Origin: Bdellovibrio bacteriovorus
GTDB taxonomy: Bacteria; Bdellovibrionota; Bdellovibrionia; Bdellovibrionales; Bdellovibrionaceae
Length of the DNA stretch: 51,667 nt
Assembly: GCF_001592755.1 (NCBI RefSeq)
Contig: NZ_LUKF01000005.1
Span: 1-51,667, forward strand
Direction: 5' to 3'
In this document: one piece after another, positions 2,568 through 44,490 of the stretch
Layout of the letters: each line of letters opens with the position of its first letter
How positions within the stretch are numbered: the first letter of the stretch is position 1
Made by a program: the position numbers and the translations under genes
Notes under the pieces: generated by a model
Database searches by the model: none
Told to the model about the DNA's origin: nothing
The model's input: the letters and a program-made list of their open reading frames with translations, nothing else

Positions 2568-2576
2568 GAGTTCATT

Positions 2577-3965
2577 ATGACAAAATCAAAAGGGATTTTT
2601 CTAGCTGTCGGAGGAGCTGCCATAGCCACAGTCTTGTTGACGGCTCTTCTAGTGAATATCTTTGAGCGCAAAACGGAAGCGAAGAATGTTTTCTATCGCG
2701 TAGTGGAACTTACGGATGACATGGATGATCCAGCGATTTGGGGGAAGAACTTTCCTCATCAGTATGATTCTTATCTGCGCACGGCAGATATGCGCCGAAC
2801 GAAGTACGGTGGTTCTGAGGCTTTTCCTCATGTGCCGACAGAAAAAGATCCTCGTGATGTCGTATCTCAACAAAAGCTGGATGAGGACCCTCGCTTGAAA
2901 ATCATGTGGGCGGGCTATGCGTTTTCTAAAGACTTCCGCGAAGAACGTGGACACGCTTATATGCTTTCGGATCAGATCTTTACGGAAAGACAGAATGTCA
3001 CGAAACAACCGGGGACTTGTTTGAACTGTCATGCTTCGACTTACGTGCTTTATAAAAAATTAGGTGATGGCGACATCACTAAAGGTTTTGAAGAGATGAA
3101 CAAGATTCCATATAAAGAAATCGTTCACTCTGTGAATCACCCCGTCTCTTGTATTGACTGTCATGACCCTTCGACGATGTCTTTGCGTGTGACTCGCCCG
3201 GCATTTATTGAAGGCATTCGTGCTTTCAAAGCGACTCAAGGAATTAAAGAATACGACGTGAACAAGATGGCGACTCGTCAAGAGATGCGCACCTTCGTGT
3301 GCGGTCAGTGTCACGTCGAGTACTACTTCAAAGGTGCTGATAAACGTCTGACTTATCCTTGGGCCGATGGTCTTAAAGCCGATCAAATTTTGGAATACTA
3401 TAAAAAAGACAGTCATAAAGACTGGGTGCATGCTGAAACTGGGGCGGCTGTTTTAAAAGCACAACATCCCGAGTTTGAAATGTTCAATCAGGGAACACAT
3501 GCGCGCGCGGGTGTGGCTTGCGTTGATTGTCACATGCCTTATGAACGTATGGGTGCCATGAAAATCACGAACCATCATGTGCAAAGCCCTCTGCTCAATA
3601 TCAACAAGGCCTGCCAAACTTGCCATAACGTTCCCGAAGCAGAGCTGAAAGCGCGAGCTGAAACCATCCAAGATCGTCATATGGAGCTTCGTAATATCGC
3701 GTTTGATGCGCTGGTTGATTATATCAAGGATCTTAAAGAGTTTAAGGACGTTGATTTGACGAAGACTCCGAATAAAAAGTTGGCGGAGGCTCGCGATTTA
3801 CAAAAGCAGGCTCAATTCTTATTTGATTTTGTCGAAGCTGAAAACTCTTCAGGCTTCCATGCTCCTCAGGAATCTGCTCGCGTATTAGGTCTCTCAATTG
3901 AAAAAGTCCGCGAAGGTCAAAAAATAGTCGCTGAACTTCGAAGAGAAATGAAAACCACGAAATAA
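2577..3965 (+). CDS. nrfA: Ammonia-forming cytochrome c nitrite reductase, CxxCH-type active-site heme
   Basis: Periplasmic pentaheme enzyme that reduces nitrite to ammonium with six electrons. An N-terminal signal or anchor helix covers about 7-28. Heme sites are C148LNCH152, C192IDCH, C242GQCH, C315VDCH and C346QTCH. Active-site residues by alignment with E. coli NrfA are R124 (in RGHAY), Y249 (after heme 3) and H297 (in KAQHPE). The calcium ligands E248/Y249 and K294/Q296 are also present. The first heme motif ends in His rather than the classical Lys, placing it in the CxxCH minority of NrfA. Start: ATG with AGGAG 6 nt upstream. Its stop shares one base with the resB start. Confidence 0.95.
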   Translation: MTKSKGIFLAVGGAAIATVLLTALLVNIFERKTEAKNVFYRVVELTDDMDDPAIWGKNFPHQYDSYLRTADMRRTKYGGSEAFPHVPTEKDPRDVVSQQKLDEDPRLKIMWAGYAFSKDFREERGHAYMLSDQIFTERQNVTKQPGTCLNCHASTYVLYKKLGDGDITKGFEEMNKIPYKEIVHSVNHPVSCIDCHDPSTMSLRVTRPAFIEGIRAFKATQGIKEYDVNKMATRQEMRTFVCGQCHVEYYFKGADKRLTYPWADGLKADQILEYYKKDSHKDWVHAETGAAVLKAQHPEFEMFNQGTHARAGVACVDCHMPYERMGAMKITNHHVQSPLLNINKACQTCHNVPEAELKARAETIQDRHMELRNIAFDALVDYIKDLKEFKDVDLTKTPNKKLAEARDLQKQAQFLFDFVEAENSSGFHAPQESARVLGLSIEKVREGQKIVAELRREMKTTK

Positions 3966-15423: not shown

Positions 15424-17285
15424 TATTCATCCCTGCCAACATTAGGGACATACTCTGCAACGAGCCTTTTTAAAATCCGTTTCGCGCCGTCTTCTTTTTG
15501 CGCCAGACATAATGTACGCAACTCCTCCAAGGACTCACGAAGGAAGTTCACCTCAAGACTATACTCTTTAGCCGTCATAATTCGAGGATGAGCAGTCCAC
15601 GAAACATTACTTCCGATCAAAAGCTCTTCATACAGCTTTTCGCCAGGCCGCAGCCCAGTAAACTCGATGCTGATGTCGCCCAATCCGGTCTCCGGATTAC
15701 GCACTTCCAGACCACTGAGCTCAATCATTTTTTTCGCTAAGTCTACAATTTTAACTGCTTCCCCCATATCAAGTACAAAGACATCCCCCCCTTTTCCCAT
15801 CGCACCAGCCTGCAACACTAGCTGTGCTGCTTCGGGAATTGTCATAAAATAACGAGTGATATTTGGGTGCGTCACCGTCACGGGACCACCAAAACGTATC
15901 TGCTCCCGAAATAAGGGGACCACAGAGCCTGAAGATCCCAAAACATTGCCGAAGCGGACCATACAAAAACGTGTAACATGGGATTTATCCTGCGAAAGCC
16001 CTTGCAATACCAGCTCTGCAAGACGCTTTGACGCCCCCATAATATTGGTGGGTCTTACGGCCTTGTCTGTGGATATTAGCACAAATGTTTCCACTTTGGA
16101 TTTAATAGCGGCCTCAGAAGCAGACAATGTTCCAAACACATTATTCATAATTCCGGCGACAACGTTGCACTCAACAAGGGGCACATGTTTGTATGCGGCT
16201 GCGTGGTAGATTGTCTGGACCCCATGCTTTTTCATTACTGTTTCCAGATGCTCAGAATTAAGAACATCCCCCAATATAGGCACAACCTCAAAGTGCACCC
16301 GATGTTTCAAAATGTCTTGCTCAACTTTATAAAGAGCATACTCTGCCTGTTCATACATGATCAGCTTTTTAGGAGTATTCATGATGATCTGGCGACATAA
16401 CTCGGAGCCAATAGATCCCCCGGCACCAGTGACCATGACGACTTTATCGCGGATGCACGACTTAATAAGGTCTTCAAATGGAGGAACAGGATCTCGTCCT
16501 AAAAGATCCTCAACCCCAACCTCACGAATATCCTCTACGCGAACAACCCCGTTCACCAGAGCGCCAAGGCCCGGCAGGGTCTTCATGACGATACCCTCAT
16601 TTTCAAAGTGCTTGATAATCGCTCGCCTGCGGGAACGACTGGCGGATGGCATTGCCAGCAACAACTGGCGACAATTTTTCCTGCGCATCACCTCAATTGC
16701 ATCATTTGGGTCATAGACCCGAATGCCGGCAACGTTGGTTCCTTGAAGTTCTGCATTGTCATCAAAGAACACCGTCGGTCGGAACTCAGTTCCGGACAGT
16801 AAAGCCAATGCAGTCTGAAGACCAGCTTGACCGGCTCCGTAGATTGCAACGGCTTGCCTGCGGTCAGAATTACGCCCAAAGCTAAGCATAACACCACGAG
16901 CAAAGAAGCGACTGAAGGCAATATAGGAAAATGCAATCACCCAATAAATAAGCACGGAAGAACGGGGTAAAGCGGATGCTCTTCCCATTACAACCACGGC
17001 AGTCAACATCAGCACGGACAGGGTAACACCATAAAAGACCGTATAAATAAACTTGTCGTTTAAAAATCGGATAACCGAGCGGTACAATCCCAAACGAACG
17101 AAAATTGGAATCGTCACAAAAGGCACAACGAAAAAGAGCCACGAATACTCACCTACATCCGGCTTCAAAGTTCCCATTCTTAATGCAACAGACGACCAAA
17201 GAGCCAAAGGCAACAAGATCGCATCACTCAGAAGCATGATTAGGATCTTAATCTTTCGTGGAAGCAGAGTAATGCGAGCGAACAT
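15423..17285 (-). CDS. Membrane-anchored UDP-GlcNAc 4,6-dehydratase (WbpM/PglF/CapD type)
   Basis: The 620-residue protein has four N-terminal membrane helices (about 13-130), a first Rossmann-like domain (AIYGAGQAGLQT, 148-158), and a C-terminal extended SDR domain with TGAGGSIGSE (286-295). The active site has T406-D407-K408 and MGASK (416-420). This TDK...MxxxK arrangement replaces the usual YxxxK and is normal for WbpM, PglF and FlaA1-like dehydratases. It converts UDP-GlcNAc to the 4-keto-6-deoxy sugar at the inner membrane. The gene begins directly at the end of the aminotransferase gene (1-nt overlap), which would use its product. Confidence 0.92.
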   Translation of the reverse strand: MFARITLLPRKIKILIMLLSDAILLPLALWSSVALRMGTLKPDVGEYSWLFFVVPFVTIPIFVRLGLYRSVIRFLNDKFIYTVFYGVTLSVLMLTAVVVMGRASALPRSSVLIYWVIAFSYIAFSRFFARGVMLSFGRNSDRRQAVAIYGAGQAGLQTALALLSGTEFRPTVFFDDNAELQGTNVAGIRVYDPNDAIEVMRRKNCRQLLLAMPSASRSRRRAIIKHFENEGIVMKTLPGLGALVNGVVRVEDIREVGVEDLLGRDPVPPFEDLIKSCIRDKVVMVTGAGGSIGSELCRQIIMNTPKKLIMYEQAEYALYKVEQDILKHRVHFEVVPILGDVLNSEHLETVMKKHGVQTIYHAAAYKHVPLVECNVVAGIMNNVFGTLSASEAAIKSKVETFVLISTDKAVRPTNIMGASKRLAELVLQGLSQDKSHVTRFCMVRFGNVLGSSGSVVPLFREQIRFGGPVTVTHPNITRYFMTIPEAAQLVLQAGAMGKGGDVFVLDMGEAVKIVDLAKKMIELSGLEVRNPETGLGDISIEFTGLRPGEKLYEELLIGSNVSWTAHPRIMTAKEYSLEVNFLRESLEELRTLCLAQKEDGAKRILKRLVAEYVPNVGRDE

Positions 17286-18496
17286 TATTTACATGCCTCT
17301 TTCATAACTTTCCGGATGGCACTGACTGCTTCCTCAACATAGGAATTGTCGAGTGTTGGATGAACCAGGAACATCAAGCTAACTTCACCCAAATGTTGAG
17401 CGTGAGGCAATCGTTCTTTCGGTCCCAAACCAGCACCTGTAAACGCCTTCTCCAAATAAATTTCGCTGCAGCTGCCGGAGAAACAAGGAACACCTTCTGC
17501 ATTAATAGCAGCCATGATCTTATCACGACTCCAATCTATCTTGAGCTGTTCAGGTACGACAGAAACATAGAATTTATAATAGGAGTGAAAAATATCTTTG
17601 CCAGGCAAAGTCACTTTCAAACAAGGAATATCAGCCAAGCCTTTCTGGAGAGACAACGCCAGATGTCTGCGTTTATCTATCCACCCTGCAAGCTTCGCCA
17701 ACTGGATACGTCCTACAGCCGCCTGTATTTCCGTCATACGCCAGTTGGTTCCAAAACTTTCATGCAACCACCGGAATCCAGGCGGATGAGGCCTGCGATA
17801 GACAGCTTCATAACTTTTGCCATGATCTTTAAAGGCCCAAAGTCTTTCATAGATGTCACTGTCATTCAATAGAAGAAGCCCGCCCTCTCCCGTCGTAGAG
17901 ATGATCTTGTCCTGACAAAAAGAGAAAGCCGACATATCACCAATAGACCCGACCAAGCGACCTTTGTATTTAGCACCATGCGCCTGCGCACAATCCTCAA
18001 TCACTTTCAATCCATGTTCTTTTGCCAACGCCATCAGACCGTCCATATCGCAGGGCCAACCCGCCAAGTGGACTGGAATAATAGCTTTCGTTTTTGAAGT
18101 AATAGCGTTTTTAACGGCCTCTACTGAAAGATTTTGTGATACAGGATCCACGTCCACGATAATCGGAGTAGCACCCACGCGAACGATACAACTGGCAGAG
18201 GCAATGAATGTTCGAGAAGTTGTAATCACTTCGTCTCCAGGTCCGATATTGTACCCGATTAAAGCCAGTTCCAAAGCCAAAGTTCCGTTGCTAAGGGCGA
18301 TCCCATGCTTCATCCCGTGATATCTGGCAAACTCTTCCTCAAACTGCTTTGTTTCAGTGCCGGTCCAGTAGTTCACTTTTCCAGAGCGTATAATATCGAC
18401 AGTCTTCTGCACTTCATCCTCCGCATAGAACGGCCAAGGAGCCATCGGAGTTTTTTTTACTGGAGTTCCGCCATCAATCGCCAAAAGATCTGCCAT
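17285..18496 (-). CDS. DegT/DnrJ/EryC1-family PLP sugar aminotransferase
   Basis: The PLP Schiff-base lysine is K197 in FSFCQDKIISTTGEGG. The cofactor Asp and following residues are in VIEDCAQAHG (about 165-174), and SNGTLALELAL binds the phosphate. With 403 residues it fits the family that aminates 4-keto (or 3-keto) nucleotide sugars with glutamate. Directly upstream of a 4,6-dehydratase, a PglE-like 4-amination is the simplest reading. It heads the minus-strand operon, divergent from the acyltransferase at 18653 across a 156-nt spacer. Confidence 0.9.
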   Translation of the reverse strand: MADLLAIDGGTPVKKTPMAPWPFYAEDEVQKTVDIIRSGKVNYWTGTETKQFEEEFARYHGMKHGIALSNGTLALELALIGYNIGPGDEVITTSRTFIASASCIVRVGATPIIVDVDPVSQNLSVEAVKNAITSKTKAIIPVHLAGWPCDMDGLMALAKEHGLKVIEDCAQAHGAKYKGRLVGSIGDMSAFSFCQDKIISTTGEGGLLLLNDSDIYERLWAFKDHGKSYEAVYRRPHPPGFRWLHESFGTNWRMTEIQAAVGRIQLAKLAGWIDKRRHLALSLQKGLADIPCLKVTLPGKDIFHSYYKFYVSVVPEQLKIDWSRDKIMAAINAEGVPCFSGSCSEIYLEKAFTGAGLGPKERLPHAQHLGEVSLMFLVHPTLDNSYVEEAVSAIRKVMKEACK

Positions 18497-18652
18497 GAGT
18501 TCTTTCCCTTTTCTAGAATGCGAAGAAGTCTAATAAAGATTCTTCTTTTCGTCGCCAAAATATCGTACCCTCTCGAAGCATAGGCGCGCCGCACTAACGG
18601 AGCTTGTGATTAAGCGCAATATCAAATAGCCTTAACTCATTGAGGTAGGCTT
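18497..18652. promoter_or_regulatory. Divergent spacer between aminotransferase and acyltransferase genes
   Basis: This 156-nt spacer separates two outward-facing transcription units and must contain their promoters. A small dyad GAAGAA...TTCTTC lies near 18519-18546 on the aminotransferase side. On the plus side GAGGT (7 nt before the ATG at 18653) is the ribosome binding site. No clear -35/-10 pair could be assigned by eye. Confidence 0.3.
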
Positions 18653-19276
18653 ATGGAAAGCATTTTAGTTTTTGGCTGCGGTGGACACTCAAAAGTAGTT
18701 TCCGATGTCATTCAAAGAGAAGGTAACTATAGAATTGCGGCCTACTACGACGAAAACCCAAAAAATAAAATGTTTCTGGGCACTCCGGTCTACTCTACGA
18801 AGGCCGATCTACAGACTGCCATGATCTCAGGAAATATTAAATCCGCAGCGATTGCCATTGGCAGCAATGAGGTACGTAGAAAATTCTCCCTCATGGCTCA
18901 AGATCTGGGACTTAAACTTCCAGTTATCGTCGACCCCTCCGCAATCATCAGTCAAAATGTGCGCTTGGGCAGGGGCACCGTTGTTATGCCGGGGGCCATC
19001 GTTAACACAGACACTCAAATTCTGGAGGGTACTATTCTCAATACTGCTTCGGTCGTGGAGCATGACTGTGTGATTGGAGCCTATACACATATTGCCCCGG
19101 GGAGCGTCCTGTGCGGCGGGGTCCATGTGGGTGAAATGAGCCTTATAGGGGCTCGCACCGTCGCAATTCCGCTTACGAAGATTGGCGCCTATTGCTCGAT
19201 TGGAGCTGGGTCAGTAGTGGTTCGAGAGATTCCCAATAACTCCTGTGCCTATGGAAATCCAGCACGTGCTAAGTAA
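18653..19276 (+). CDS. NeuD/PglD-family sugar O/N-acyltransferase
   Basis: The N-terminus has the Rossmann-like FGCGGHSKVV (about 7-16) that binds the UDP-sugar in PglD. A left-handed beta-helix of hexapeptide repeats fills about 95-200 and contains VVEHDCVIG, whose His corresponds to the catalytic base. It ends with the typical GNPAR. With the dehydratase and aminotransferase next door, this gives the PglF-PglE-PglD set that makes UDP-N,N'-diacetylbacillosamine or a related 4-acylamido sugar. The acyl group cannot be told from sequence. Start: ATG with GAGGT upstream. The end overlaps the flippase gene by about 26 nt. Confidence 0.88.
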   Translation: MESILVFGCGGHSKVVSDVIQREGNYRIAAYYDENPKNKMFLGTPVYSTKADLQTAMISGNIKSAAIAIGSNEVRRKFSLMAQDLGLKLPVIVDPSAIISQNVRLGRGTVVMPGAIVNTDTQILEGTILNTASVVEHDCVIGAYTHIAPGSVLCGGVHVGEMSLIGARTVAIPLTKIGAYCSIGAGSVVVREIPNNSCAYGNPARAK

Positions 19277-30260: not shown

Positions 30261-31466
30261 ATGAAAAAGAGGCATTTTATCTCCAACTATCTCAATTTAG
30301 GCATCCTGGCAATTTCCGGTTTTGCTGCAAACTTAATTTGCGACCACTACTTTGGAAGTGAGATTGTCGGAGTCCTGAATACGTCGACATCCTTGTATAT
30401 TATCCTAACTCAATGCGCCGCTTGGGGGCAACAAGCCTACCTGCAATCCCAACTACCACTGTGCCAAACCGACTCTGAGATAAAGGAAAAGCTCACCCTT
30501 TCACTCTTTTCAAGCCTTTCAATGTCGATTCTTTTCGCTGCTGTCGCGGTACTTTTAACTCTTGCCTTCAACAAAACCGAATACACCCTTCTAGCACTCA
30601 GCACTTTGGCAATGGGTCCGGCAAAAACGCTGACATTTTCACAATTGGGCTTAGGCAGATATCACCGATTCGCGATGTGCAGTTCCGCCCGACCGGCTTT
30701 CTTTCTGATCTCCATAGCAATCCTAGGTGTTCTGGGACAGGCGAGCTTCTTGGGAGCTGCATTTCTCGCAGCGGAGCTGCTGACTTTGCTTGTAGCAACC
30801 CTTATGACCTCCCAACACATCAGCCGGTCAATTCCTTCAAAACAGAACCTGCTTGACAACCTTCGTCATAACTCTGCCAATTTCATCAGCATCATGACAA
30901 TGGAACTGAACACGCGTCTGGATATTATCGTGATTTCATTTTTGGGCTCCAAAGAGCAAGTCGCAATCTATTCAGTTGCCCTGATCTTCTTTGAGGGCTT
31001 CTACCAGGCTCTGGTGGTCATCAGAAATATCATCTCCAAAACTCTAACCAAATTACACTTTTCATCTTCAAACGAACTTAAGCTCTTCGCAAAACAGACC
31101 GCCAAAAAGGTATATCTTTTTGCGATGGCTATGGGAATCAGTGCATTCGTCACCATTCCTTGGCTGATTAAAATATATAAGAATCAGGATCTGTATTTAG
31201 AAAGTATCGCTCTGGCCTACACCGTAATTGCGGTACAAACCGCATTAGCTGGCCTGCTTGTCTTTGATAATTTTCTGGGCGTTATCAACAAGCCACAACT
31301 GTATCTAAAACAAAAGTCTTTTATCCTGCTGTTTAACTTGATAGCTCAACCGGTGTTTTTCTTATCGATGGGCTTGATGGGGTCGGCAATTGCGACTTCT
31401 TTAAGTTACTTGTGTTCGGCAGCTCTGAACTATTTAGCCATTAGCACATCCCGAGCGGCCGCCTGA
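30261..31466 (+). CDS. Second Wzx-like flippase (MOP superfamily)
   Basis: The 401-residue protein has about twelve hydrophobic segments with N-terminal NYLNLGILAISGFAANLI and a central RLDIIVISFLGSKEQVAIYSVA, the usual Wzx/polysaccharide-transporter helix-7 region. It probably flips a lipid-linked oligosaccharide. The ATG has no good Shine-Dalgarno, so translation could be weak or start on a near-leaderless message. It is a single-gene plus-strand unit between two minus-strand blocks; the stop is 4 nt from the convergent amidotransferase gene. Confidence 0.8.
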   Translation: MKKRHFISNYLNLGILAISGFAANLICDHYFGSEIVGVLNTSTSLYIILTQCAAWGQQAYLQSQLPLCQTDSEIKEKLTLSLFSSLSMSILFAAVAVLLTLAFNKTEYTLLALSTLAMGPAKTLTFSQLGLGRYHRFAMCSSARPAFFLISIAILGVLGQASFLGAAFLAAELLTLLVATLMTSQHISRSIPSKQNLLDNLRHNSANFISIMTMELNTRLDIIVISFLGSKEQVAIYSVALIFFEGFYQALVVIRNIISKTLTKLHFSSSNELKLFAKQTAKKVYLFAMAMGISAFVTIPWLIKIYKNQDLYLESIALAYTVIAVQTALAGLLVFDNFLGVINKPQLYLKQKSFILLFNLIAQPVFFLSMGLMGSAIATSLSYLCSAALNYLAISTSRAAA

Positions 31467-31470
31467 TATT

Positions 31471-33417
31471 TTAATATAATTTAGGAACTCTGGTGATGGC
31501 TTTGGCAACTTCAATTGCATCAAGTCCAAGAACGTCACAATACCATGCAAAGGACTCCGGACGAGGGTGATTGTCTCTCTCGATCAACGCCTTGGCCTGG
31601 TCAATCGTCAAATGACCTTCACGAATCTGATTTGCACGAAGAGTGTCGTTCTCAGAGAAGCCAACAACAGAGTGATAAATGAAATTATAGAATGGGGCTG
31701 TCCCATCACCAATACGCCAGCTGGTTTCACAGTCTGGTGAGTACTCCCAGTCATACCGCTTCAAAGTGGCATCCACGACATTTTCATTCCACTCTACATA
31801 ATCAAAAAGATTAAGATAAGTGCGTGGATAAACGTAATAGCTGAGGTAGCCAGTGAACGTATCCCACAGAGAGGCATTCCAATAGCCCGGATTTACTGCA
31901 AACTCGGTTCCATAAAAACTCAGCATTTTAAGTTTATTCGACGTTGACATGCTATAGGCCATTGAAGAGTTTTCACCACTTTGCTCAGCGCCCGCAAATC
32001 TGGTTTTAAAGCCAGTCTTTTCAAGCTTGTTTTCGCCCATAACATTCAAATGCAAACCGTTTTCTTTTTTTACTTTTTCTGCATAGTAGAAGTAATGCTT
32101 ATCCCCTGCCATGAACAAAGGAATCGTCCCCAACGAAGGACGTCGAAGCCATGCGGAAACGTTGTCTTTGATATACTTTCTTTTCTTTTCAATATCCGCA
32201 GACACAATAAGGTGTTCAACTTTCAAATCTCCACACATGCGAGACTGATTGCGGCGAGCCAGATCCGTTACCATACCCCAGTCGTAGGTAAAGGCAGAGG
32301 CCTTCAACCCCAATTCCTTCACAACGGTATGCAGAGTGAAACAGCTGTCGCGGCCACCACTCAGACTGACCAAGACCTTATCTTGAGTACCGCCCTTAGA
32401 AAGGCGATTATACAGGTCATTCTTGGACAACTTGGGCTTCGCGCTTTGGTATCCAGCACAAATTGAACACGCACCAGCAGAATCGAATGCAATGCCTGGA
32501 AACGTTGAAGGTAACAGACACTTCGTACAACGTTTTACGTTCTTGGTGGCATCGCTAACGAACCTGAATTCACTTTCAAGAATACGCCCCAGCTCAACCA
32601 CATTAACATGGCTTGTATATTCTGTAGTTTGAACCTTGGTCACTTCTTTCAAAGGTGCGGATGACTCCGGCATACCGAAAGAAATCTCTTCTTTGGTAAC
32701 ATCGTAAATTCCGCCCTTTGTGTTACGGTGATCGTAAACAAAGACATTAGGAAACAACAGCTGAGTTGCTTCGTACTGCTCCTGCAGTGGAAGGGCTCTT
32801 TTTTCAGAAGAGAAATACCAGCGCTCATCACGATTCTGCAAATACAGTGAACCGTTAGATGAGAATAAAATACTCAGTCCCCACTTGGCAGAATAAATTG
32901 CGAAGTTGTTCGCGCCTTTGATCTCCTCATTGAAGGCACGCATGACTTTCGAGAAATCGAACGTGTCCGCAGAATCAGAAAGCTTACTTAGAAAACCAAC
33001 TGATGCGTAGGTATCCAAAGGTAAAGCGCAGATATCAGAAGATATCCCTTCTTTAACCTCTTTTTCATTTGTGATGATACCATTATGAACAACAATCCAG
33101 TCCTTGTAGACTACCGGCTGATTGTTCGCAGAATCCCCTGTGCCACCATGAGTCGCCAGACGAGTATGGCCAAAGACAAGCTCAGGCTTGCCGGATGCAG
33201 ATACGAAACTGCGGAAGCTTTTGTATTCGTCCGACCGGATGGCCTTATGAAACGGAAGAGAGAGCTTTCCAAAACGCAAATCCCGTCCGGCATAATCAAG
33301 GGCAGCAAAACCGAAGGCATCATGACCCCGGCGTTCCAGGACCTTCGCCATTGCCTCAAACTCTTCTATAGAATTTGAGCCTCCAAGATTTCCAATGACC
33401 CCAGCAATACCACACAT
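31471..33417 (-). CDS. Class II glutaminase fused to WbpG/PseA-like N-acetyl-sugar amidotransferase
   Basis: Residues 1 to about 230 are an Ntn-type glutamine amidotransferase: catalytic C2 (MCGIAGVIG), RRGHDAFGFA, FGHTRLATHG and VHNGIITN. From about 290 the protein is an N-acetyl-sugar amidotransferase with CTKC...CSIC (a zinc-finger-like site from 293), the ATP-pyrophosphatase loop SLSGGRDS (about 352-359), and GENKLEKTGFKTRF further on. WbpG and PseA turn an N-acetyl group of a nucleotide sugar into an acetamidino group, and WbpG normally takes ammonia from a separate HisH-like class I glutaminase. Here the ammonia source is fused and of another class. The adjacent UDP-GlcNAc dehydrogenase suggests an acidic aminosugar substrate (inference). 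Confidence 0.85.
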   Translation of the reverse strand: MCGIAGVIGNLGGSNSIEEFEAMAKVLERRGHDAFGFAALDYAGRDLRFGKLSLPFHKAIRSDEYKSFRSFVSASGKPELVFGHTRLATHGGTGDSANNQPVVYKDWIVVHNGIITNEKEVKEGISSDICALPLDTYASVGFLSKLSDSADTFDFSKVMRAFNEEIKGANNFAIYSAKWGLSILFSSNGSLYLQNRDERWYFSSEKRALPLQEQYEATQLLFPNVFVYDHRNTKGGIYDVTKEEISFGMPESSAPLKEVTKVQTTEYTSHVNVVELGRILESEFRFVSDATKNVKRCTKCLLPSTFPGIAFDSAGACSICAGYQSAKPKLSKNDLYNRLSKGGTQDKVLVSLSGGRDSCFTLHTVVKELGLKASAFTYDWGMVTDLARRNQSRMCGDLKVEHLIVSADIEKKRKYIKDNVSAWLRRPSLGTIPLFMAGDKHYFYYAEKVKKENGLHLNVMGENKLEKTGFKTRFAGAEQSGENSSMAYSMSTSNKLKMLSFYGTEFAVNPGYWNASLWDTFTGYLSYYVYPRTYLNLFDYVEWNENVVDATLKRYDWEYSPDCETSWRIGDGTAPFYNFIYHSVVGFSENDTLRANQIREGHLTIDQAKALIERDNHPRPESFAWYCDVLGLDAIEVAKAITRVPKLY

Positions 33418-33420
33418 ACC

Positions 33421-34377
33421 TTATTCTCCGTAAAATACCTTCTGCTTCAGCAATGCCAAGCTACGCTCTTGATTGACACGAATTCGATCCAACATCTCAA
33501 CGACCAGCCCAAGAATAAACAGGAACAATGCCGTGCCCAATAAGAACCCACCGCTGAATCCAGCCCACAAATAGCCGGTAAACTTTCCAGTTTGCATAAA
33601 ATGAGCAATGAACACCGCAAAAAGAGATCCGCCAATTGCAAACAACACAGAAGCCATACTCCAAAACAGTTTCAGAGGGTAATAGCTCAGATACGCTCGC
33701 CCAATGATCTTGGAGGTGTTCAAAGCGTACTTCGCAATGCTGTGAGCCATACGACTTTTACGTCCCTCGAAGTACTTCACGCGCGAGGGTACTTCCTGAA
33801 TGCGGAAACGTTTATAGGACAAGTCCAAAAACACTTCTTGAGTATAAGTGAACTGACCAAAAAGATTGAGATTCAAAAGACACTGCTTTGAGTAGGCACG
33901 GAAGCCGCAGGCCACGTCGTAATACGAAGAACCCGTCAATGAACTGATCAGCTTTGACATTTGACGATTTCCCCAAAGCTTCACTGGAGGTATGCCCTGA
34001 GGCAGATACTCGTCAGAGATAAAACGTGAAGCCGTAACAAAATCGGCTCGACCATCAACAATCGGCGCGATCAGTTTTGGAATATCATTGGGGTCAAACT
34101 GGCCGTCACCATCCGTAGTAACCATGAGATCCATCTTATTTCTAAGACTCCACTCAACTGCACTTTGAAAAGCAATACCAAGCCCCTTATTTACCCCATG
34201 GGAGACAACCTCCGCCCCCGCTTCACGAGCAAGCTGAGCGGTATTATCTTTAGAGCCGTCATCGATCACAAGGACGACAACCTTGGACACCCTATCAAGA
34301 TTTCTAGGGATAGAGCGGACGACGGTAGCGATCGTTTCGCTCTCGTTCAAACATGGGATAGCCACTACCAGATTCAT
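33421..34377 (-). CDS. GT2 glycosyltransferase with two C-terminal membrane helices
   Basis: The GT-A domain shows IPCLNESETI, LVIDDGSKDNT and the metal-binding TTDGDGQFDPNDI, as in dolichol-phosphate-mannose synthase-like enzymes. Two hydrophobic helices at about 240-300 anchor it. At 318 residues it could make a polyprenyl-phosphate sugar for the GT-C proteins of this locus, or add a sugar directly. The ATG lies 18 nt after the dehydrogenase stop and 3 nt separate its stop from the amidotransferase start, so the three are one operon. Confidence 0.85.
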   Translation of the reverse strand: MNLVVAIPCLNESETIATVVRSIPRNLDRVSKVVVLVIDDGSKDNTAQLAREAGAEVVSHGVNKGLGIAFQSAVEWSLRNKMDLMVTTDGDGQFDPNDIPKLIAPIVDGRADFVTASRFISDEYLPQGIPPVKLWGNRQMSKLISSLTGSSYYDVACGFRAYSKQCLLNLNLFGQFTYTQEVFLDLSYKRFRIQEVPSRVKYFEGRKSRMAHSIAKYALNTSKIIGRAYLSYYPLKLFWSMASVLFAIGGSLFAVFIAHFMQTGKFTGYLWAGFSGGFLLGTALFLFILGLVVEMLDRIRVNQERSLALLKQKVFYGE

Positions 34378-34395: not shown

Positions 34396-35697
34396 TTATG
34401 CGTGTACCACATTGTCATGATGTCCACGGTACTTTCCGCGTGTATCAACAATCAGCTTGGCATTTTTCTGAATCATGTCGTAGTCAAACACATCATGATC
34501 AGTCGCAACAACCACACAATCATATTCTTTTAGTGTGGCCGCCGTGACATCAACAGAGCTCAACTCAAATTTGTGCTCACGCATTTTTGGGAATACTGGG
34601 ACATGAGGATCTGCATAACTGATGTTAGCGCCATTATCACGCAGTCTTTCCATCAAAAATACAGACGGAGACTCACGCATATCATCAATGTTTTTCTTAT
34701 AAGAAATTCCCAGCACCAGAACTTTTGCTGCTTTAACTGACTTCAAGCGATCATTAAGCGCCAGTGCAATCTTCTTCATAACGTAGGCTGGCATTGAGTT
34801 ATTAATCTCCCCTGCCAATTCGATGAAGCGAGTGTGAACCCCAAATTCACGAGCTTTCCAAGTCAAATAGAATGGATCGATAGGAATACAGTGACCACCG
34901 ATCCCCGGCCCTGGACGATATGCAACGAAACCAAATGGTTTGGTTGCTGCTGCATCAATAACTTCATGAATGTCGATGCCCATTTTGTCAGCGACAATTT
35001 TCATCTCGTTCACCAGACCGATATTTACCGCACGGTGAATGTTCTCAAGAAGTTTAGTCATCTCAGCAGCCTTCGTTGAACTTACCGGAACTACTTTATC
35101 GATCACGCCACCATATAGTTCCACACCAACTTCAAGACATGCCGGCGTTGAGCCGCCAACCACTTTAGGAATTGTTTTGGTGTTGAAGTGGGGATTGCCC
35201 GGATCTTCACGTTCTGGAGAGAATACCAAAAAGACATCCTTACCAACGGTGAATCCACGCGCTTCAATACGGGGTCTTAGTTCTTCTTCAGTTGTTCCCG
35301 GATAAGTTGTGCTTTCCAAAGATACAACCTGCCCTTTTCTCAGGTAAGGAACAAGGCTGTCCATTGTATTCAAAACAAAACTCAAATCCGGCTCGCGGTA
35401 TTTATTCAGAGGCGTTGGCACGCAAAGAATAATGGCATCAACTTTTGCTATTTCTGCAAAATTTGTCGTCGCCGTAAAGTTCTTACTGGAAGCCTGTTTT
35501 ACCGATGCGCTGGAAATGTGCTCAATATAGCTTTCGCCCGCTTTGATCTTTGTTACTTTAGTTTCATCAATATCGAAACCAACAACAGAAAAATTTTCTT
35601 CAGAAAAACGAAGTGCCAAAGGAAGGCCTACATACCCCAGACCGACAATCCCAATGACAGCTTTTTTAACCTTCAAGTCATTCGCCAAAGAACTCAT
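34396..35697 (-). CDS. wbpA: UDP-N-acetylglucosamine 6-dehydrogenase-like nucleotide-sugar dehydrogenase
   Basis: An NAD-dependent UDP-glucose/GDP-mannose dehydrogenase family member. It has [11 protein letters not shown] (NAD loop near 20), [10 protein letters not shown] and the catalytic C270 in [16 protein letters not shown]. It oxidises C6 of a UDP-sugar to the uronic acid in two NAD+ steps. The spacing and the [11 protein letters not shown] signature resemble WbpA/WecC-type enzymes for N-acetyl sugars more than UDP-glucose dehydrogenase, so UDP-GlcNAc to UDP-GlcNAcA is the best guess. GAGGG lies 4-5 nt before the ATG. It heads an operon with GT2 and the fused amidotransferase, 130 nt after the phosphoglycosyltransferase gene. 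Confidence 0.85.
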
Positions 35698-35827: not shown

Positions 35828-36424
35828 TTAATTCTGGGATGAACCGCGAAATTTTTCCGTCGTAGCAGAGCCCGCTGAACTGATGCCTTCGCGTATTAAA
35901 ACTTTTTTAACAGTCTTAAAGAGAATCTTCATATCCAAAACAAATGATCTGTTATCGACATACCAAACGTCCAACTTGAACTTATCTTCCCAACTTAGGC
36001 TGTTTCGACCATTTACCTGCGCCCAACCAGTAATACCGGGGCGAACCTCATGTCGGCGAGCCTGGAACTCATTATACAACGGAAGATATTCTGCATGAAA
36101 AGGTCGCGGACCAACGAAGCTGATATCACCCACGAGAAGATTATAAAAACTGGGCAGCTCGTCCAGACTACTAGCACGCAGAAACTTTCCAAAGGAAGTG
36201 AGTCGCTGTTCATCAGGCAACAATTGCCCGTGAGCATCGACCTGATTTGTCATAGAACGAAACTTCCATAGATAAAAGACTTTCCCACCCAGCCCTCCTC
36301 GAGCCTGCTTAAATAACACGGGCGGTCCTAGTTTGATACGAACTAAAAGTGCAGTTACGAAGAGTACAGGCAGCCATAACGGGGAGAACACAAACAGCAG
36401 GATCAAATCAAAACATCGCTTCAT
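35828..36424 (-). CDS. Monotopic phosphoglycosyltransferase (PglC/WcaJ-type initiating sugar transferase)
   Basis: The 198-residue protein has one re-entrant N-terminal hydrophobic segment (about 6-28), LWKFRSMT, the catalytic Asp-Glu dyad D88-E89 in SSLDELPSF, GDISFVGPRP and RPGITGWAQVNGR. The short length is like PglC, which moves phospho-diNAcBac from UDP to undecaprenyl phosphate to begin a lipid-linked glycan. The 4-aminosugar enzymes at 15-19 kb make such a role plausible here. Its ATG overlaps the stop of the aldo/keto reductase-like gene (ATGA), so the two are coupled. The last 20 residues are a polar tail. Confidence 0.92.
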   Translation of the reverse strand: MKRCFDLILLFVFSPLWLPVLFVTALLVRIKLGPPVLFKQARGGLGGKVFYLWKFRSMTNQVDAHGQLLPDEQRLTSFGKFLRASSLDELPSFYNLLVGDISFVGPRPFHAEYLPLYNEFQARRHEVRPGITGWAQVNGRNSLSWEDKFKLDVWYVDNRSFVLDMKILFKTVKKVLIREGISSAGSATTEKFRGSSQN

Positions 36425-37158
36425 GAATTGCTCGCAAAATCACGAATATGCTCTAACTTTGAAATACTAATAATAGCACCCTCAATACCCTGATGACTAA
36501 GAGCCCATTCAAATAGCTCTCGGGCCGTTTTGTTCGTATTCTTGAGAGCTTCTCCAGCAGCCAATGGCCGTAAAATATAAGATTTCTTACCAAGCTTTGC
36601 AGCCAGCTCGATAGATTTATCGTATTCTGTTTCAATCACGTTACGATAAACTACCAGCCCGTCAATACATTCTATCCGAATAGCGCTATTTGCGAATGGA
36701 ACAGAATAAGGAAAACACATAAATTGCTTTATCTTATTTTGAAGTTTGAGATCTTCAACTTCCTTCGCTAAACAAGGACAAGCAGCTATAAAGTCTCTAA
36801 TTCTAATCTGATCCTCATTCAGATTCAGCCTCCACATCCACTGAACTACAGACAAATGAGCAGTCTGCAAATCCGAAAGATAGTCGTTCACCTTTTTAGT
36901 CAGACGGCCTACTTCAAAACCAACATCCCCGAAACTAGGCTCTGCAAGCTTCACAATATGCTCAAATTCTACATGAGGATGCTTTTTCTTTAAAAAACTA
37001 AGAGCCTCTTTTAATAAAGGATAACTCTCGTATTCCGAAGAGCTATGGAGTTTACGAACTCCCAACGAGTGTGCCTCGCAAAAAAATTGTACCCAAAATG
37101 AAACGTCCAGAGTCACTTCATGCAGGCGCATTGTCCCCAGAACTAGCTTATTGACCAT
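36421..37158 (-). CDS. Aldo/keto reductase-like protein with a degenerate catalytic tetrad
   Basis: The fold is recognisable from LVLGTMRL at the start, GVRKLHSSSEYESYPLLKEAL, EHIVKLAEP and the late RELFEWALSHQGIEGAIISI. Of the D-Y-K-H tetrad, Tyr (in SEY) and Lys (in HIVKL) remain. The Asp position is His (LHSS instead of FDTA), and the usual His is Trp (VQWMWR instead of LQLHRP). It may be a non-enzymatic relative or have altered chemistry. I chose the ATG at 37158: GGAAG lies upstream and conservation begins there; an upstream in-frame start at 37212 would overlap the previous gene. It sits between the TauD-like and PGT genes in one operon. Confidence 0.75.
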   Translation of the reverse strand: MVNKLVLGTMRLHEVTLDVSFWVQFFCEAHSLGVRKLHSSSEYESYPLLKEALSFLKKKHPHVEFEHIVKLAEPSFGDVGFEVGRLTKKVNDYLSDLQTAHLSVVQWMWRLNLNEDQIRIRDFIAACPCLAKEVEDLKLQNKIKQFMCFPYSVPFANSAIRIECIDGLVVYRNVIETEYDKSIELAAKLGKKSYILRPLAAGEALKNTNKTARELFEWALSHQGIEGAIISISKLEHIRDFASNS

Positions 37159-37178
37159 TTGGCTTTCTTCCGTACTTA

Positions 37179-37958
37179 TTAGAAAACACCGACATTCATC
37201 GCACACTTCCAAATAAAGCGTTCAGATTCTTTGGTGGCAGCAAAAGAGTTTCTTCCATGAAGAAGCTCGTCATCTTTCCACATAACGGAATCTCCGGGTT
37301 GCAATTTTACAGCCAATGTTTTTGCTTTAATTGCCGAAGAGGATAAAAGATAACTATGAAACTCTTCAACCATGTTACGAGTTTCCGCGCCGATTTCAGA
37401 AGAAACACAATAATAGTTCCAATTAACATGTAACTTAGCGCCTTTCTGGCAAATGATACACTCGGAACGAGAGTCGCCAGATCTCGAATGAGACACAGGA
37501 CGAGACATCAACTTTTCCAAAAGAACAGGATTCTCAGACTTCATACACTCAACCAGATCAACTGAGTCCAAGAAAGTAGTTTCACCGCCCGAGCCCGCAT
37601 TGGTAACACAGGCTAACAACGTCGAGTTTGGGAAGGTTGGAATATAAGAGCCATCTGTATGAAGAGGCTGAGCATTTGCAGAGTGCCGATATGCATCTGG
37701 AAAACGTGGATCAAATCGAACTTCCATCCAAACCTTGCCAGTTCTTTGCTTACTTCGGTCTCCAACATTGACATCCTCAGCTAACGCCGCAGGAGTTCCA
37801 ATAAAAGGAAATAGCGTTTCATAAAATTCCCTGACGGACTCAATCTTTTCCGCTGCCCTCAGCACGAAAACTTTAAGGTTATCGTTTTTCCAATCCTCAA
37901 CCAAGGCCTTACAGGTCTCAGCTGCAGAATCTTTGGTAAACTTCTTCTCCCACAACAT
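37179..37958 (-). CDS. TauD/TfdA-family Fe(II)/2-oxoglutarate-dependent oxygenase
   Basis: The facial triad is clear: H100-x-D102 in QPLHTDGSY and H234 in LLHGRNSF. R247 (ERFIW) is positioned to bind 2-oxoglutarate. The middle, CVTNAGSGGETTFLD, is a TauD-type lid region. It probably hydroxylates or oxidises a small molecule or a glycan precursor in the cytoplasm; the substrate is unknown. I use the ATG at 37958, which has GAGGG 8 nt upstream; an in-frame start exists 21 nt before. It is the first gene of the operon with the AKR-like and PGT genes. An oxygenase in an O-antigen-type locus is uncommon. Confidence 0.82.
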   Translation of the reverse strand: MLWEKKFTKDSAAETCKALVEDWKNDNLKVFVLRAAEKIESVREFYETLFPFIGTPAALAEDVNVGDRSKQRTGKVWMEVRFDPRFPDAYRHSANAQPLHTDGSYIPTFPNSTLLACVTNAGSGGETTFLDSVDLVECMKSENPVLLEKLMSRPVSHSRSGDSRSECIICQKGAKLHVNWNYYCVSSEIGAETRNMVEEFHSYLLSSSAIKAKTLAVKLQPGDSVMWKDDELLHGRNSFAATKESERFIWKCAMNVGVF

Positions 37959-38194
37959 ATTAGAACCCTCGCTCAACAATTGATAACTTGCCTGCTAATA
38001 CATGGCAACAATCAACTTAACCACTCCAGCCAAGGCTCCACCTAAATATTTTAAAAATCGGCCCTAGGATGCCAAGATACTAAACACATTTGAGTTCTTC
38101 GACATTGCCTACACACCGAATTCAACGCGCGCGGCGTCGAAACTTAGAAAAGACTACGGACGTCACCTATTGTACACTGCGAGCCTGAGGCCAC
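37959..38194. promoter_or_regulatory. Divergent spacer before the oxygenase operon and the ligase-like gene
   Basis: The largest gene-free stretch of the window, 236 nt, lies between two outward-facing units. A GC-rich patch (CGCGCGCGGCG, near 38129-38139) interrupts otherwise AT-rich sequence. GAGG lies 5 nt before the ATG at 38195. No promoter could be assigned by eye. Confidence 0.3.
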
Positions 38195-41036: not shown

Positions 41037-42452
41037 ATGAGACATTATGTAGTCTGCGATTTGGATGATTGCCTTATAAAAACAGATTTGCTTTATGAAC
41101 AATGGCTTGTTCTTCTAAAATCCAAGCCGTTAGTTTTCTTACAAAGTCCTTTTTGGCTTGTAAAAGGTCGCTCTTATTTTAAATTCAAATTGTCTCAGCA
41201 TGCACCCATTTCCCCTAACCTTCTACCTTACAGGGAAGAAGTAGTTCAGTTTTTAAAAACGTCGAAAACTGATAAAAACAATCAATTAGTTCTTGCTTCA
41301 GCAAGTCCAGAGACTTGGGTGAAAGATATATCTCTCCACACTGGACTGTTTGAATCTGCGCTAGGAAGCTCTCAAGAATCAAATCTAAAGGGAGCTGCCA
41401 AGTATAAAGCCATCAGATCATCCATTGGAGAAAATACATTCACCTATATTGGCGACCACACCGCTGACTTGGAAATCTGGAAGCACTCATCGAAGGTAGT
41501 GGCAGTAAATCCTTCTGTGAGTTTACGCTCCAAAATTGCTTTACTTGCAAAACCTACCGACATTATTACTGACAAAAAAAGATCGACTTGGAATCTGACG
41601 GTCAAACAAATTCGCCCTCATCAATGGATTAAGAACGTCCTTGTCTTTTTGCCCGCATTTGCAGGTCATAAACTGGTTAGTGCGGATAATATTCAGAACG
41701 GCTTACTTGCCTTTGCAGGATTTAGCTTTGCTGCTTCGTTCGTTTACGTACTTAATGACCTCTTAGATCTTAAAGCGGATCGAAATCATCATACCAAAAA
41801 ACGTCGTCCTTTCGCTTCTGGAGACCTGCCAATAAAATGGGGACTTCTGTTACTTCCATCACTTTTGGCCGGTTGTGGAACAATGGCAGCGTTACTACCA
41901 ACTGATTTTGCCATATGGATATCGGTGTATTTGATTTTGAACTTAGCTTATTCTCTCTATCTTAAGCAGAGTGTCGTTGTTGATATTATTATCTTATCCA
42001 TGATGTATACTCTTCGCATATTCGCTGGATCAGCAGCGACGTCTGTGCCAATTTCGGAATGGTTATTAAGCTTCTCTACTTTATTCTTTTTTAGCTTGGC
42101 TTGCGTGAAAAGATACACTGAGATCATTAGAAGTAAAAACAAGATAACTCTCGACGGACGAGGCTATCGACAAGTTGACTATTCAATGGTCCAATCCCTT
42201 GGGGTTGGTTCAGGATTGATATCAATCCTAATCATTCTTTTATATCTTCAGAGCAACGACGTGAGGGCCTTATATAACAACCCCCAGAACTTATGGTTTG
42301 CAACACCTGTACTGCTATTCTGGATCTCTCGAGTTTGGATTCTCACCAATCGCGATGAAATTCATGATGATCCGGTCGTATTTGCCGTAAAAGATAAAAT
42401 TAGCTGGATCTGTCTTGGACTTCTAGGCTTAATCTTTGGGATAGCGACATAA
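41037..42452 (+). CDS. HAD phosphatase fused to UbiA-type polyprenyl-phosphate phosphoribosyltransferase
   Basis: Residues 1 to about 180 are a HAD hydrolase with motif I D8-L-D10, LASASPETW, and GDHTADLEIW. From about 190 a UbiA-family membrane prenyltransferase follows: IRPHQWIKNVLVFLP and the Mg-binding N240DLLDLKADRNH, then KKRRPFASG. The UbiA half matches Rv3806c-like enzymes that join 5-phosphoribose-diphosphate to polyprenyl phosphate. The HAD half could remove the 5-phosphate, giving polyprenyl-phospho-ribose (inference). Its TAA shares a base with the DprE1 start. About eight helices are seen in the UbiA half. Confidence 0.88.
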   Translation: MRHYVVCDLDDCLIKTDLLYEQWLVLLKSKPLVFLQSPFWLVKGRSYFKFKLSQHAPISPNLLPYREEVVQFLKTSKTDKNNQLVLASASPETWVKDISLHTGLFESALGSSQESNLKGAAKYKAIRSSIGENTFTYIGDHTADLEIWKHSSKVVAVNPSVSLRSKIALLAKPTDIITDKKRSTWNLTVKQIRPHQWIKNVLVFLPAFAGHKLVSADNIQNGLLAFAGFSFAASFVYVLNDLLDLKADRNHHTKKRRPFASGDLPIKWGLLLLPSLLAGCGTMAALLPTDFAIWISVYLILNLAYSLYLKQSVVVDIIILSMMYTLRIFAGSAATSVPISEWLLSFSTLFFFSLACVKRYTEIIRSKNKITLDGRGYRQVDYSMVQSLGVGSGLISILIILLYLQSNDVRALYNNPQNLWFATPVLLFWISRVWILTNRDEIHDDPVVFAVKDKISWICLGLLGLIFGIAT

Positions 42453-43756
42453 TGGAATACCCAAGTTGGGGATTTTATCCCGTCGTAAAAAATCAAGATA
42501 CTTACATATTACCAAACAGAATAACTTCAATCCCGAGTTTGACCACCTCTCTCCTACCTCGTGGACTGGGTCGTTCCTATGGAGACTCCTGTCTCAATGA
42601 AAACGGTACACTGATAATAACCAGTCAGCTGAATCATTTTATATCATTTGATGAGAGTTCCGGTGTTCTTTGTTGTGAAAGTGGAATTACTTTCGATGAG
42701 ATTCTTAAATTTGCTATTCCTCGTGGTTGGTTTCTTCCAGTTACGCCCGGGACTAAATTTGTGACCGTGGGCGGTGCTATTGCTAATGATGTTCATGGTA
42801 AAAATCATCATTGTGCAGGGAACTTTGGACACCACGTCCTTTCGTTTGAACTATTACGCTCGAATGGCGAAAGACTCCGCTGCTCTCGAATTGACAATAG
42901 TGACTTCTTTTTTGCCACGATCGGTGGCCTTGGACTAACAGGATTAATTACTTGGGCGGAATTTAAACTGACGAAAATCCAATCGTCATTTATTTCTCAA
43001 GAGCAGATACAGTTTGATTCATTAGCTGATTTTTTGACCTTGTCTGAACAATCCGAAAAGGATTTTGAGTTCACGGTCTCATGGGTTGACTGTGTTAACA
43101 CCGCTAAAGACGTACGGGGAATTTTCATTCGCGGCAACTATTGTAAGCCTTCGGAATCTGCAGTACTAAAGGTCCACAATACTGACACATTTAAAACTGT
43201 TCCGCTGTTTTTTCCAGAATGGATTTTAAATAGCTTTTCCATACGCGCATTTAACGAACTTTATTATAGGAAAAACCTGTCGCATCATAAAAGCAACATC
43301 GTTCACTATGAACCTTTCTTTTATCCACTAGATTCTATCTACCATTGGAATAAAATTTATGGCAAAAGAGGCTTTCTGCAGTACCAGTTCGTCATTCCGT
43401 ATAAAAACGATCAAGGCGCAGCATTGTCAGAAATATTTTCCCTGCTTCAACGCAGCCAAATGGGCTCTTTTTTGGCAGTTTTAAAAACCTTCGGTTCAAT
43501 CCCTTCAGAGGGAATGCTGTCCTTCCCGAAAGAAGGTATAACTTTAGCCTTAGATTTTCCAAACCATGGAGAGTCTTTGTATGAAGTTTTGGAACAATGC
43601 GATCAGATTGTTCGGTCTGTTAACGGTGCTGTTTACCCTGCTAAAGATGCCCGAATGCGCAAAGAAAGTTTTGCAGAGTTCTATCCCCGCCTCAATGAAT
43701 TTGAAAAGTATATCGATCCGAATTTTTCTTCTAGTCTCTGGAGACGTGTAAAATGA
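42452..43756 (+). CDS. dprE1: Decaprenylphosphoryl-beta-D-ribose 2'-oxidase (DprE1-like FAD enzyme)
   Basis: An FAD-linked oxidase that turns polyprenyl-phospho-ribose into the 2-keto form, the first half of ribose-to-arabinose epimerisation. Signatures shared with mycobacterial DprE1 are GLGRSYGD (Y43), VTPGTKFVTVGGAIANDVHGKNHH, GGLGLTG, WNKIYGKRGFLQYQFVIP and the catalytic-Lys segment YPAKDAR. At 434 aa it is slightly shorter than the 461-aa mycobacterial protein. The Cys that benzothiazinones attack (Cys387 in M. tuberculosis) aligns with Ala366 here, in ITLALDFP. It is translationally coupled on both sides (1-nt and 4-nt overlaps). Confidence 0.92.
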   Translation: MEYPSWGFYPVVKNQDTYILPNRITSIPSLTTSLLPRGLGRSYGDSCLNENGTLIITSQLNHFISFDESSGVLCCESGITFDEILKFAIPRGWFLPVTPGTKFVTVGGAIANDVHGKNHHCAGNFGHHVLSFELLRSNGERLRCSRIDNSDFFFATIGGLGLTGLITWAEFKLTKIQSSFISQEQIQFDSLADFLTLSEQSEKDFEFTVSWVDCVNTAKDVRGIFIRGNYCKPSESAVLKVHNTDTFKTVPLFFPEWILNSFSIRAFNELYYRKNLSHHKSNIVHYEPFFYPLDSIYHWNKIYGKRGFLQYQFVIPYKNDQGAALSEIFSLLQRSQMGSFLAVLKTFGSIPSEGMLSFPKEGITLALDFPNHGESLYEVLEQCDQIVRSVNGAVYPAKDARMRKESFAEFYPRLNEFEKYIDPNFSSSLWRRVK

Positions 43757-44490
43757 AAAAAATCTTAGTCATTGGTGCAACTTCAGCGATAGCCCAAGAA
43801 GTAGCTAAATTGTATGCAGCGAATAGCGAAGAGCTCATTCTCTGGGGACGCAACAGCGAGATGCTACATATCATTTCCCAAGATCTTCTCGTTCGAGGTG
43901 GTAAAAAGATATCTTCTATAAGTCATGACTTAAACGATCTTGCTATACACGAATCAAAAATTAATGAGATTTGGAACACTCACTCCAAAATCGATATAGT
44001 GTTATTAGCACATGGAGTCCTTGGAAATCCTAGAAAAGCTGAGGTTAATCAAGCTGAGATGCTTCACCTTTTAAATAGCAACTTTGTTTCTCATGTTTCT
44101 CTACTTACATTCATCTCCCAAAAAATGGTTCAACAAGGTTTTGGAACAATCGCGGTGATCTCATCTGTAGCAGGTGATAGAGGTAAACAGTCAAACTATG
44201 TGTATGGATCCGCAAAGGCCGGAATGACGGCATACACGGATGGTCTAAGAAATCGACTATTCCCTACTGGTGTCCATGTCCTGAATCTAAAGTTAGGCCC
44301 CGTGGATACACCGATGACCAAAGATCACAAAAAAACTGCGTTATTTGGAAAAGCGCCTTCGGTTGCAAAAGGTATTGTTTCCGCCATCGAAAAAAAGAAA
44401 AACACTGTCTATCTACCTATGATTTGGCGCTACATTATGATCATCATCAACAGTATTCCAGAAGCTGTATTCAAGCGTCTCAAGATTTAG
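43753..44490 (+). CDS. dprE2: Decaprenylphosphoryl-2-keto-ribose reductase (DprE2-like SDR)
   Basis: A short-chain dehydrogenase of 245 residues with GATSAIAQEVA (8-18), the LLAHGVLG motif, the catalytic Y151-x-x-x-K155 in YGSAKAG and an upstream Ser in ISSVAGD. It would reduce the 2-keto intermediate to polyprenyl-phospho-arabinose with NAD(P)H. The C-terminal hydrophobic segment (about 220-240) is like that of mycobacterial DprE2 and would keep it near the membrane. The ATG overlaps the DprE1 stop (ATGA). The TAG overlaps the stop of the convergent membrane protein gene. Confidence 0.9.
   Translation: MKKILVIGATSAIAQEVAKLYAANSEELILWGRNSEMLHIISQDLLVRGGKKISSISHDLNDLAIHESKINEIWNTHSKIDIVLLAHGVLGNPRKAEVNQAEMLHLLNSNFVSHVSLLTFISQKMVQQGFGTIAVISSVAGDRGKQSNYVYGSAKAGMTAYTDGLRNRLFPTGVHVLNLKLGPVDTPMTKDHKKTALFGKAPSVAKGIVSAIEKKKNTVYLPMIWRYIMIIINSIPEAVFKRLKI

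Follow-up and report, generated by a model that had tools for sequence, protein, structure and literature searches.

Can a single gene provide both the glutaminase and the synthetase of a sugar-modifying enzyme that is canonically paired with a separate HisH-like glutaminase? This question is raised by an open reading frame of 648 amino acids at positions 31471–33417 (minus strand) of the analysed stretch of Bdellovibrio bacteriovorus DNA (contig NZ_LUKF01000005.1; 51,667 nucleotides, hereafter referred to as the window), which starts with ATG and has the N-terminus MCGIAG. A sequence-only reading had taken it for an Ntn glutaminase joined in one chain to a WbpG/WbuX-type synthetase of the N-acetyl sugar amidotransferase (NASAT) family, and the Pfam and NCBIfam matches, the PDB profiles and the fold comparison all agree on this. 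The N-terminal half (residues 1–245; 32683–33417, minus strand) is a class II (Ntn) glutamine amidotransferase domain, matched by GATase_6 (1.2e-8) and GATase_7 (1.9e-6), both over the Pfam cut-offs and the only Pfam matches in the protein, and by the NCBIfam model of GlmS (5e-14); a further NCBIfam match, asn_synth_AEB, is confined to residues 2–128. The C-terminal half (residues 292–648; 31474–32544, minus strand) matched TIGR03573 (WbuX, N-acetyl sugar amidotransferase) over residues 295–637 (4e-23). The score of 82 bits lies below the curated cut-off of 203.2, and we therefore place this half, judging from its sequence, in a sister subfamily that is related to TIGR03573 but outside the curated family. 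A PDB search with a profile of 13 sequences retrieved GlmS for residues 1–246 (5e-20) and the Legionella NASAT 8WEX for the C-terminal half (1e-16).

A second question is whether the C-terminal half could belong to a PP-loop family that does not act on sugars. The AlphaFold2 model, built from 81 aligned sequences, reached a mean pLDDT of 89.8 and a pTM of 0.91 and is weak only at about residues 240–270, that is, at the interdomain linker (residues 246–291; 32545–32682, minus strand), which has the lowest pLDDT and is the least conserved region (mean majority share 0.22). In VIA-align comparisons, residues 293–648 of the model were superimposed on chain residues 40–430 of 8WEX with a Z of 22.4 and an rmsd of 4.3 over 311 residues, whereas the next-best PP-loop folds, NcsA, ArtA and LarE, gave a Z of 12.6 or less; the C-terminal half thus sides with the sugar enzymes. 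Its start aligns with 8WEX residue 40, and C297 and C300 fall on the zinc ligands Cys44 and Cys47. The tetracysteine of 8WEX (LpNASAT) holds zinc, its PP-loop is predicted to split ATP into AMP and PPi, and the family is defined by a CXXC...[GN]XCXXC tetracysteine and an SGGXDS PP-loop (PMC10607449). The fusion contains both, namely, C297, C300, G315–C317 and C320 (cysteine codons within 32458–32529, minus strand) and SGGRDS at residues 353–358 (32344–32361, minus strand), and the four cysteines and the PP-loop are kept in 80–81 of the 81 aligned sequences, in line with the ATP-PPi/zinc-cysteine half proposed earlier. With the NASAT family of the WbpG/WbuX/PseA type it shares, in addition to the fold, the zinc tetracysteine and the PP-loop, residues N390, W543, G586 and R599 and the setting in surface-glycan clusters. 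One fused member (L044:10001-11980) lacks three of the four zinc cysteines, with G, S and T at the positions of C300, C317 and C320, and retains the PP-loop and the glutaminase residues.

The proposed Cys2 nucleophile (codon at 33412–33414, minus strand) was borne out by the MCGI motif and by alignment with GlmS, in which C2, R86, N112, G113 and D135 of the fusion correspond to C1, R73, N98, G99 and D123, which we take to be the catalytic, glutamine-binding and oxyanion residues of GlmS. All five are kept in at least 80 of the 81 aligned fused sequences: R86, N112, G113 and D135 are invariant in 81/81, and C2 is present in 80, the single exception having a doubtful start. Likeness to GlmS and PurF is limited to the Ntn domain and these residues; the acceptor domains are unrelated, and GlmS and PurF have no ATP-PPi half. 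Members of the fused family nevertheless appear in public records as '7-cyano-7-deazaguanine synthase', 'glucosamine 6-phosphate synthetase' or 'hypothetical protein', and the first two names would make the fusion a misfiled QueC- or GlmS-like housekeeping enzyme of deazaguanine or amino-sugar synthesis. We consider this highly improbable, given that no match to the QueC family PF06508 was found at E 0.01, that TIGR00364 yielded 15.6 bits versus 150.3, that the absence of a GlmS isomerase half rules out GlmS as the identity of the whole protein, and that both the glycan-cluster context and the accessory distribution point elsewhere.

How, then, does the arrangement compare with known one-chain enzymes? 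In the AsnB family, a Cys2 Ntn glutaminase and an ATP-PPi synthetase reside in one chain; GMP synthetase and NAD synthetase also join a glutaminase to a PP-loop ATP-PPi domain, although their glutaminases are of class I (triad) or nitrilase type and their PP-loop subfamilies and substrates are different. The likeness to asparagine synthetase that had been proposed for the fusion holds for the layout but not for the parts, which are a GlmS/PurF-like N-terminal half (Z ~ 25 to PurF/GlmS, compared with 20 to AsnB in VIA-align) and a NASAT C-terminal half. Membership of the asparagine synthetase/WbpS group was rejected, as no PF00733 match was found at E 0.01, the genome search gave none to this ORF, and the fold is that of NASAT. 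Close analogues are WbpS and WbqG, AsnB-like one-chain Ntn/PP-loop sugar amidotransferases that make uronamides (PMC7468200, PMC6025236); they act on amino-uronic sugars and share with the fusion the combination of Ntn and ATP-PPi halves and the link to surface glycans, but their synthetase half is Asn_synthase.

From the domain and fold identity, the GlmS catalytic residues and the conserved zinc cysteines and PP-loop, the fusion is probably a complete one-chain glutamine-dependent sugar amidotransferase, which would most likely make an acetamidino sugar for a surface glycan. The Ntn domain would hydrolyse glutamine at Cys2, and the ammonia would travel through the interior of the protein to the NASAT-type PP-loop site; there, ATP would activate (adenylate) the carbonyl oxygen of an acyl group on the sugar with the formation of AMP and PPi, and ammonia would displace AMP. 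In the likeliest product, an N-acetylated amino sugar or amino-uronic acid would have gained an acetamidino group (sugar-N-C(=NH)-CH3), the exact substrate being one that we infer, and the adjacent polyprenyl-phosphate-type GT2 enzyme, a flippase and transferases would then build the modified sugar into the surface glycan. The activity is a predicted one, and some features weigh against it: the C-terminal half shares only ~ 20% identity with canonical NASATs, and in a genome search with TIGR03573, fused relatives scored 69–137 bits, while most stand-alone NASATs exceeded 203. The fused clade also has its own pocket (YDWG, RRN, AGDK and a W423–P427 insertion), in which the invariant or nearly invariant residues Y378, W380, R388, R389, K412, W423, P427, G438–K440, E466, N514, W567–R568 and Y577 differ from the canonical ones, so the fused enzymes may have another substrate and may even attack another acyl group.

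Is the fusion a single odd protein? Scanning GTDB genomes yielded 470 confirmed relatives, and the 80 best were fetched as loci (the neighbourhood counts of fused genes below refer to these 80); all of these 80 match the fusion essentially end to end. Their carriers belong to Bacteroidota, Ignavibacteriota, Patescibacteria and other candidate phyla, Chloroflexota, Pseudomonadota, Bacillota, Planctomycetota, Acidobacteriota, Myxococcales and Omnitrophota and, among archaea, to Methanoperedenaceae and Methanophagales. The survey of similar fusions thus revealed a widespread clade spanning many bacterial phyla and archaea, and since 92 full-length relatives have the same domain order, chance and misassembly are excluded. 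Within the phylum, the distribution is patchy, with about 13 carriers among 369 genomes (two of these genes being cut by contig ends), and 3 of the 24 genomes of the genus possess the fusion. Three full-length homologues were found in the plasmid search, on plasmids of Solidesulfovibrio and Agrobacterium, and none in the phage search. Cultured carriers include Agrobacterium sp. RAC06, Solidesulfovibrio carbinolicus, Bradyrhizobium pachyrhizi and Bosea sp. WAO. In a quick tree of 133 C-terminal domains, which has some long branches and is unsure as to the position of the root and the branching order among stand-alone clades, all 93 fused sequences lie on one side of one branch (SH-aLRT 95); by this sequence comparison, the fused C-terminal halves make up a single clade that is separate from the stand-alone NASATs. 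The nearest stand-alone protein to this clade in the tree is a C-terminal-only paralogue without the glutaminase half (L093:17809-18894); a full fusion lies 5.8 kb from it, and the gene after it is a GT2 gene of the window's type.

The source of ammonia separates the two groups further. Canonical NASATs are mostly 340–440 aa long and have HisH/HisF next door, whereas the fusion carries its own Ntn glutaminase. When flanks of about 1.5 kb were inspected around stand-alone NASATs over the cut-off in the same phylum, HisH adjoined 24 of 30, nearly always together with HisF, which agrees with the three-gene systems already known and with the pairing of the canonical enzyme with a separate HisH-like glutaminase. 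In contrast, only 7/80 fused genes have a HisH within 10 kb, no separate HisH/HisF partner genes were seen near the fusion, and in the genome of the window we found neither a HisH over the cut-off nor a canonical or other NASAT, all of which favours a self-sufficient acetamidino-forming enzyme. A simple replacement of HisH/HisF/NASAT by the fusion is, however, weakened by three of these seven loci (L041, L045 and L068) that hold both the fused gene and a separate HisH/HisF/NASAT set, a coexistence that also counts against the acetamidino reading. Two congener loci of the same surface-locus kind (L162 and L163) contain WbpA-WbpB-acetyltransferase-HisH-HisF clusters with NASATs in the vicinity (L162 has two copies); the genus therefore switches between the fused and the split form of the amidotransferase.

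Additional evidence comes from the gene run. The fusion is the last gene of a tight minus-strand run that consists, from its first gene on, of a TauD-type Fe(II)/2-oxoglutarate dioxygenase gene (37179–37979; PF02668, 5e-20), a gene for a 263-aa protein that overlaps its neighbours (36421–37212; no Pfam or NCBIfam match, aldo-keto-reductase-like by eye only), a PglC-like initiating sugar-phosphate transferase gene (35828–36424; Bac_transf, 9e-59), a nucleotide-sugar 6-dehydrogenase gene and a GT2 glycosyltransferase gene. The dioxygenase and the overlapping 263-aa gene (36421–37979) were found near none of the 80 relatives. Convergent with the fusion lies a Wzx-like flippase gene (30261–31466, plus strand), and similar flippases occur near 28–35 of the 80 relatives. 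The GT2 gene (33421–34377, minus strand) lies 3 bp upstream of the fusion, between it and the dehydrogenase gene, and belongs by Pfam, NCBIfam and ArnC structures (1e-14) to the ArnC/dolichyl-phosphate-sugar synthase type; ArnC is a polyprenyl-phosphate sugar transferase. Similar GT2 genes are the most constant neighbours, present near 57/80 relatives and within 200 bp of the fused gene in 28/80, so GT2 is likely a pathway partner, in agreement with the surface-glycan role of an acetamidino-forming fusion.

The constancy of this lipid-phosphate-type partner also bears on the substrate. The mean identity of fused C-terminal halves across phyla is 53%, compared with 38% among 27 canonical NASATs of one phylum and 20% between the groups; because the fused halves are more alike across phyla and have their own invariant residues, the clade may act on one narrow substrate. 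This substrate might be another acyl compound common to these clusters, such as the lipid-linked product of the GT2 step or a sugar with a carbamoyl or formyl group, and one subclade does lie beside NodU/CmcH-like genes (L155–L157). We find this rather improbable, as a direct link to such a substrate is absent and carbamoyltransferase-like genes occur in few loci. Somewhat broader, and still tentative, is the idea that the fused proteins constitute an enzyme family of their own, which would use a single substrate across phyla and archaea and make a sugar modification not yet described instead of acetamidino groups on assorted sugars; this idea builds on the near-invariant pocket together with the constant GT2 partner. 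In the divergent fused subclade mentioned (L014–L016; loci L155:9066-16916, L156:6436-10098 and L157:6512-10124), the carbamoyltransferase gene of NodU/CmcH type immediately precedes the fused gene in two of the three loci, and radical-SAM-like genes are nearby.

The dehydrogenase leads to a different alternative. The UDP-GlcNAc dehydrogenase earlier described as adjacent is indeed WbpA/Cap5O-like and in the same run (34396–35697, minus strand; TIGR03026, 443 bits; Cap5O, 2e-69), but it is the second gene upstream, separated from the fusion by GT2. It is 79% identical to the dehydrogenase that stands beside a fused gene and a WbpB gene (1e-91 to 3OA2) in congener G146, and it shares 82 and 78% identity with those of congeners G138 and G153, which head WbpA-WbpB-acetyltransferase-HisH-HisF clusters with a NASAT close by. 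These identities of 78–82% link the window dehydrogenase to a WbpG-type pathway, and this likeness supports, at the level of sequence, a HexNAcA-derived sugar as a possible substrate source and fits acetamidino formation. A complete WbpA-B-D-E route to a ManNAc3NAcA-type sugar finds no support here, since no close WbpB was found in this genome, though congeners have it, and this absence tells against the acetamidino reading. With a WbpA-like dehydrogenase present and WbpB missing, plain HexNAcA could be the substrate: the PP-loop half would activate the C6 carboxylate of UDP-HexNAcA, and ammonia would turn it into an amide, as in a counterpart of WbpS/WbqG with a different fold. One-chain WbpS performs this very reaction (PMC7468200, PMC6025236), and the fusion pocket is unlike that of acetamidino-forming NASATs. 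Such uronamide formation seems unlikely to us, considering that the dehydrogenase is near only 7/80 relatives despite the nearly invariant pocket, that 12/80 loci also carry an AsnB-type gene able to do the job, and that the fold is NASAT, not AsnB. The likeliest reading is that an acetamidino group is formed on a sugar that is N-acetylated and perhaps uronic; uronamide formation comes second. The amidated or acetamidino uronic acid suggested at the outset is backed by WbpA-like dehydrogenases in the genus but not by the relatives at large, and a product derived from UDP-GlcNAcA is a conjecture. Another N-acetylated substrate could be offered, to judge by gene content, by a UDP-diNAcBac-type set at 15423–19276 (PglF-like dehydratase, DegT aminotransferase and PglD/NeuD acetyltransferase), the dehydratase and aminotransferase of which share 69–78% identity with their counterparts in the surface-glycan loci of congeners.

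Is such an enzyme already known? One-chain Ntn/PP-loop sugar amidotransferases are known from the AsnB family (WbpS/WbqG), and NASATs are known as stand-alone proteins; the fused combination appears undescribed. No description of the fusion, its spread or its misnaming was found in the open-access literature searched, an absence that is no proof. A 2026 survey of the QueC superfamily lists WbpG-type proteins of 300–400 aa and, separately, Flavobacterial multidomain proteins of 900–2603 aa, and does not mention a fused class of ~ 650 aa (PMC13329287). A single crystal structure represents the NASAT family, and the paper on it calls the family's reaction probable (PMC10607449), a status partly due to the fact that the canonical enzyme also goes with HisH. 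A one-chain, glutamine-fed NASAT would be easier to assay and to crystallise, and work on it could resolve the reaction for the family as a whole. Acetamidino and amide sugars alter the charge and recognition of bacterial surfaces, and hundreds of genomes carry fused relatives under wrong names or none; as a result of this misannotation, genome-based predictions of glycan structure miss a nitrogen.

Two other regions of the window deserve mention. At 41037–44490 (plus strand), consecutive matches to decaprenyl-phosphate phosphoribosyltransferase (HAD-UbiA), DprE1 (8e-78 to the mycobacterial-type enzyme) and DprE2 resemble a polyprenyl-phosphoryl-arabinose-like pathway outside actinobacteria, which is also present in congener G146 (L149:9110-13883) and partly in G135. 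At 5409–10202 (plus strand), a 1597-aa protein with bacterial Ig-like domains (Big_13) is encoded, and cytochrome c nitrite reductase-type genes (2121–3965) adjoin its gene.
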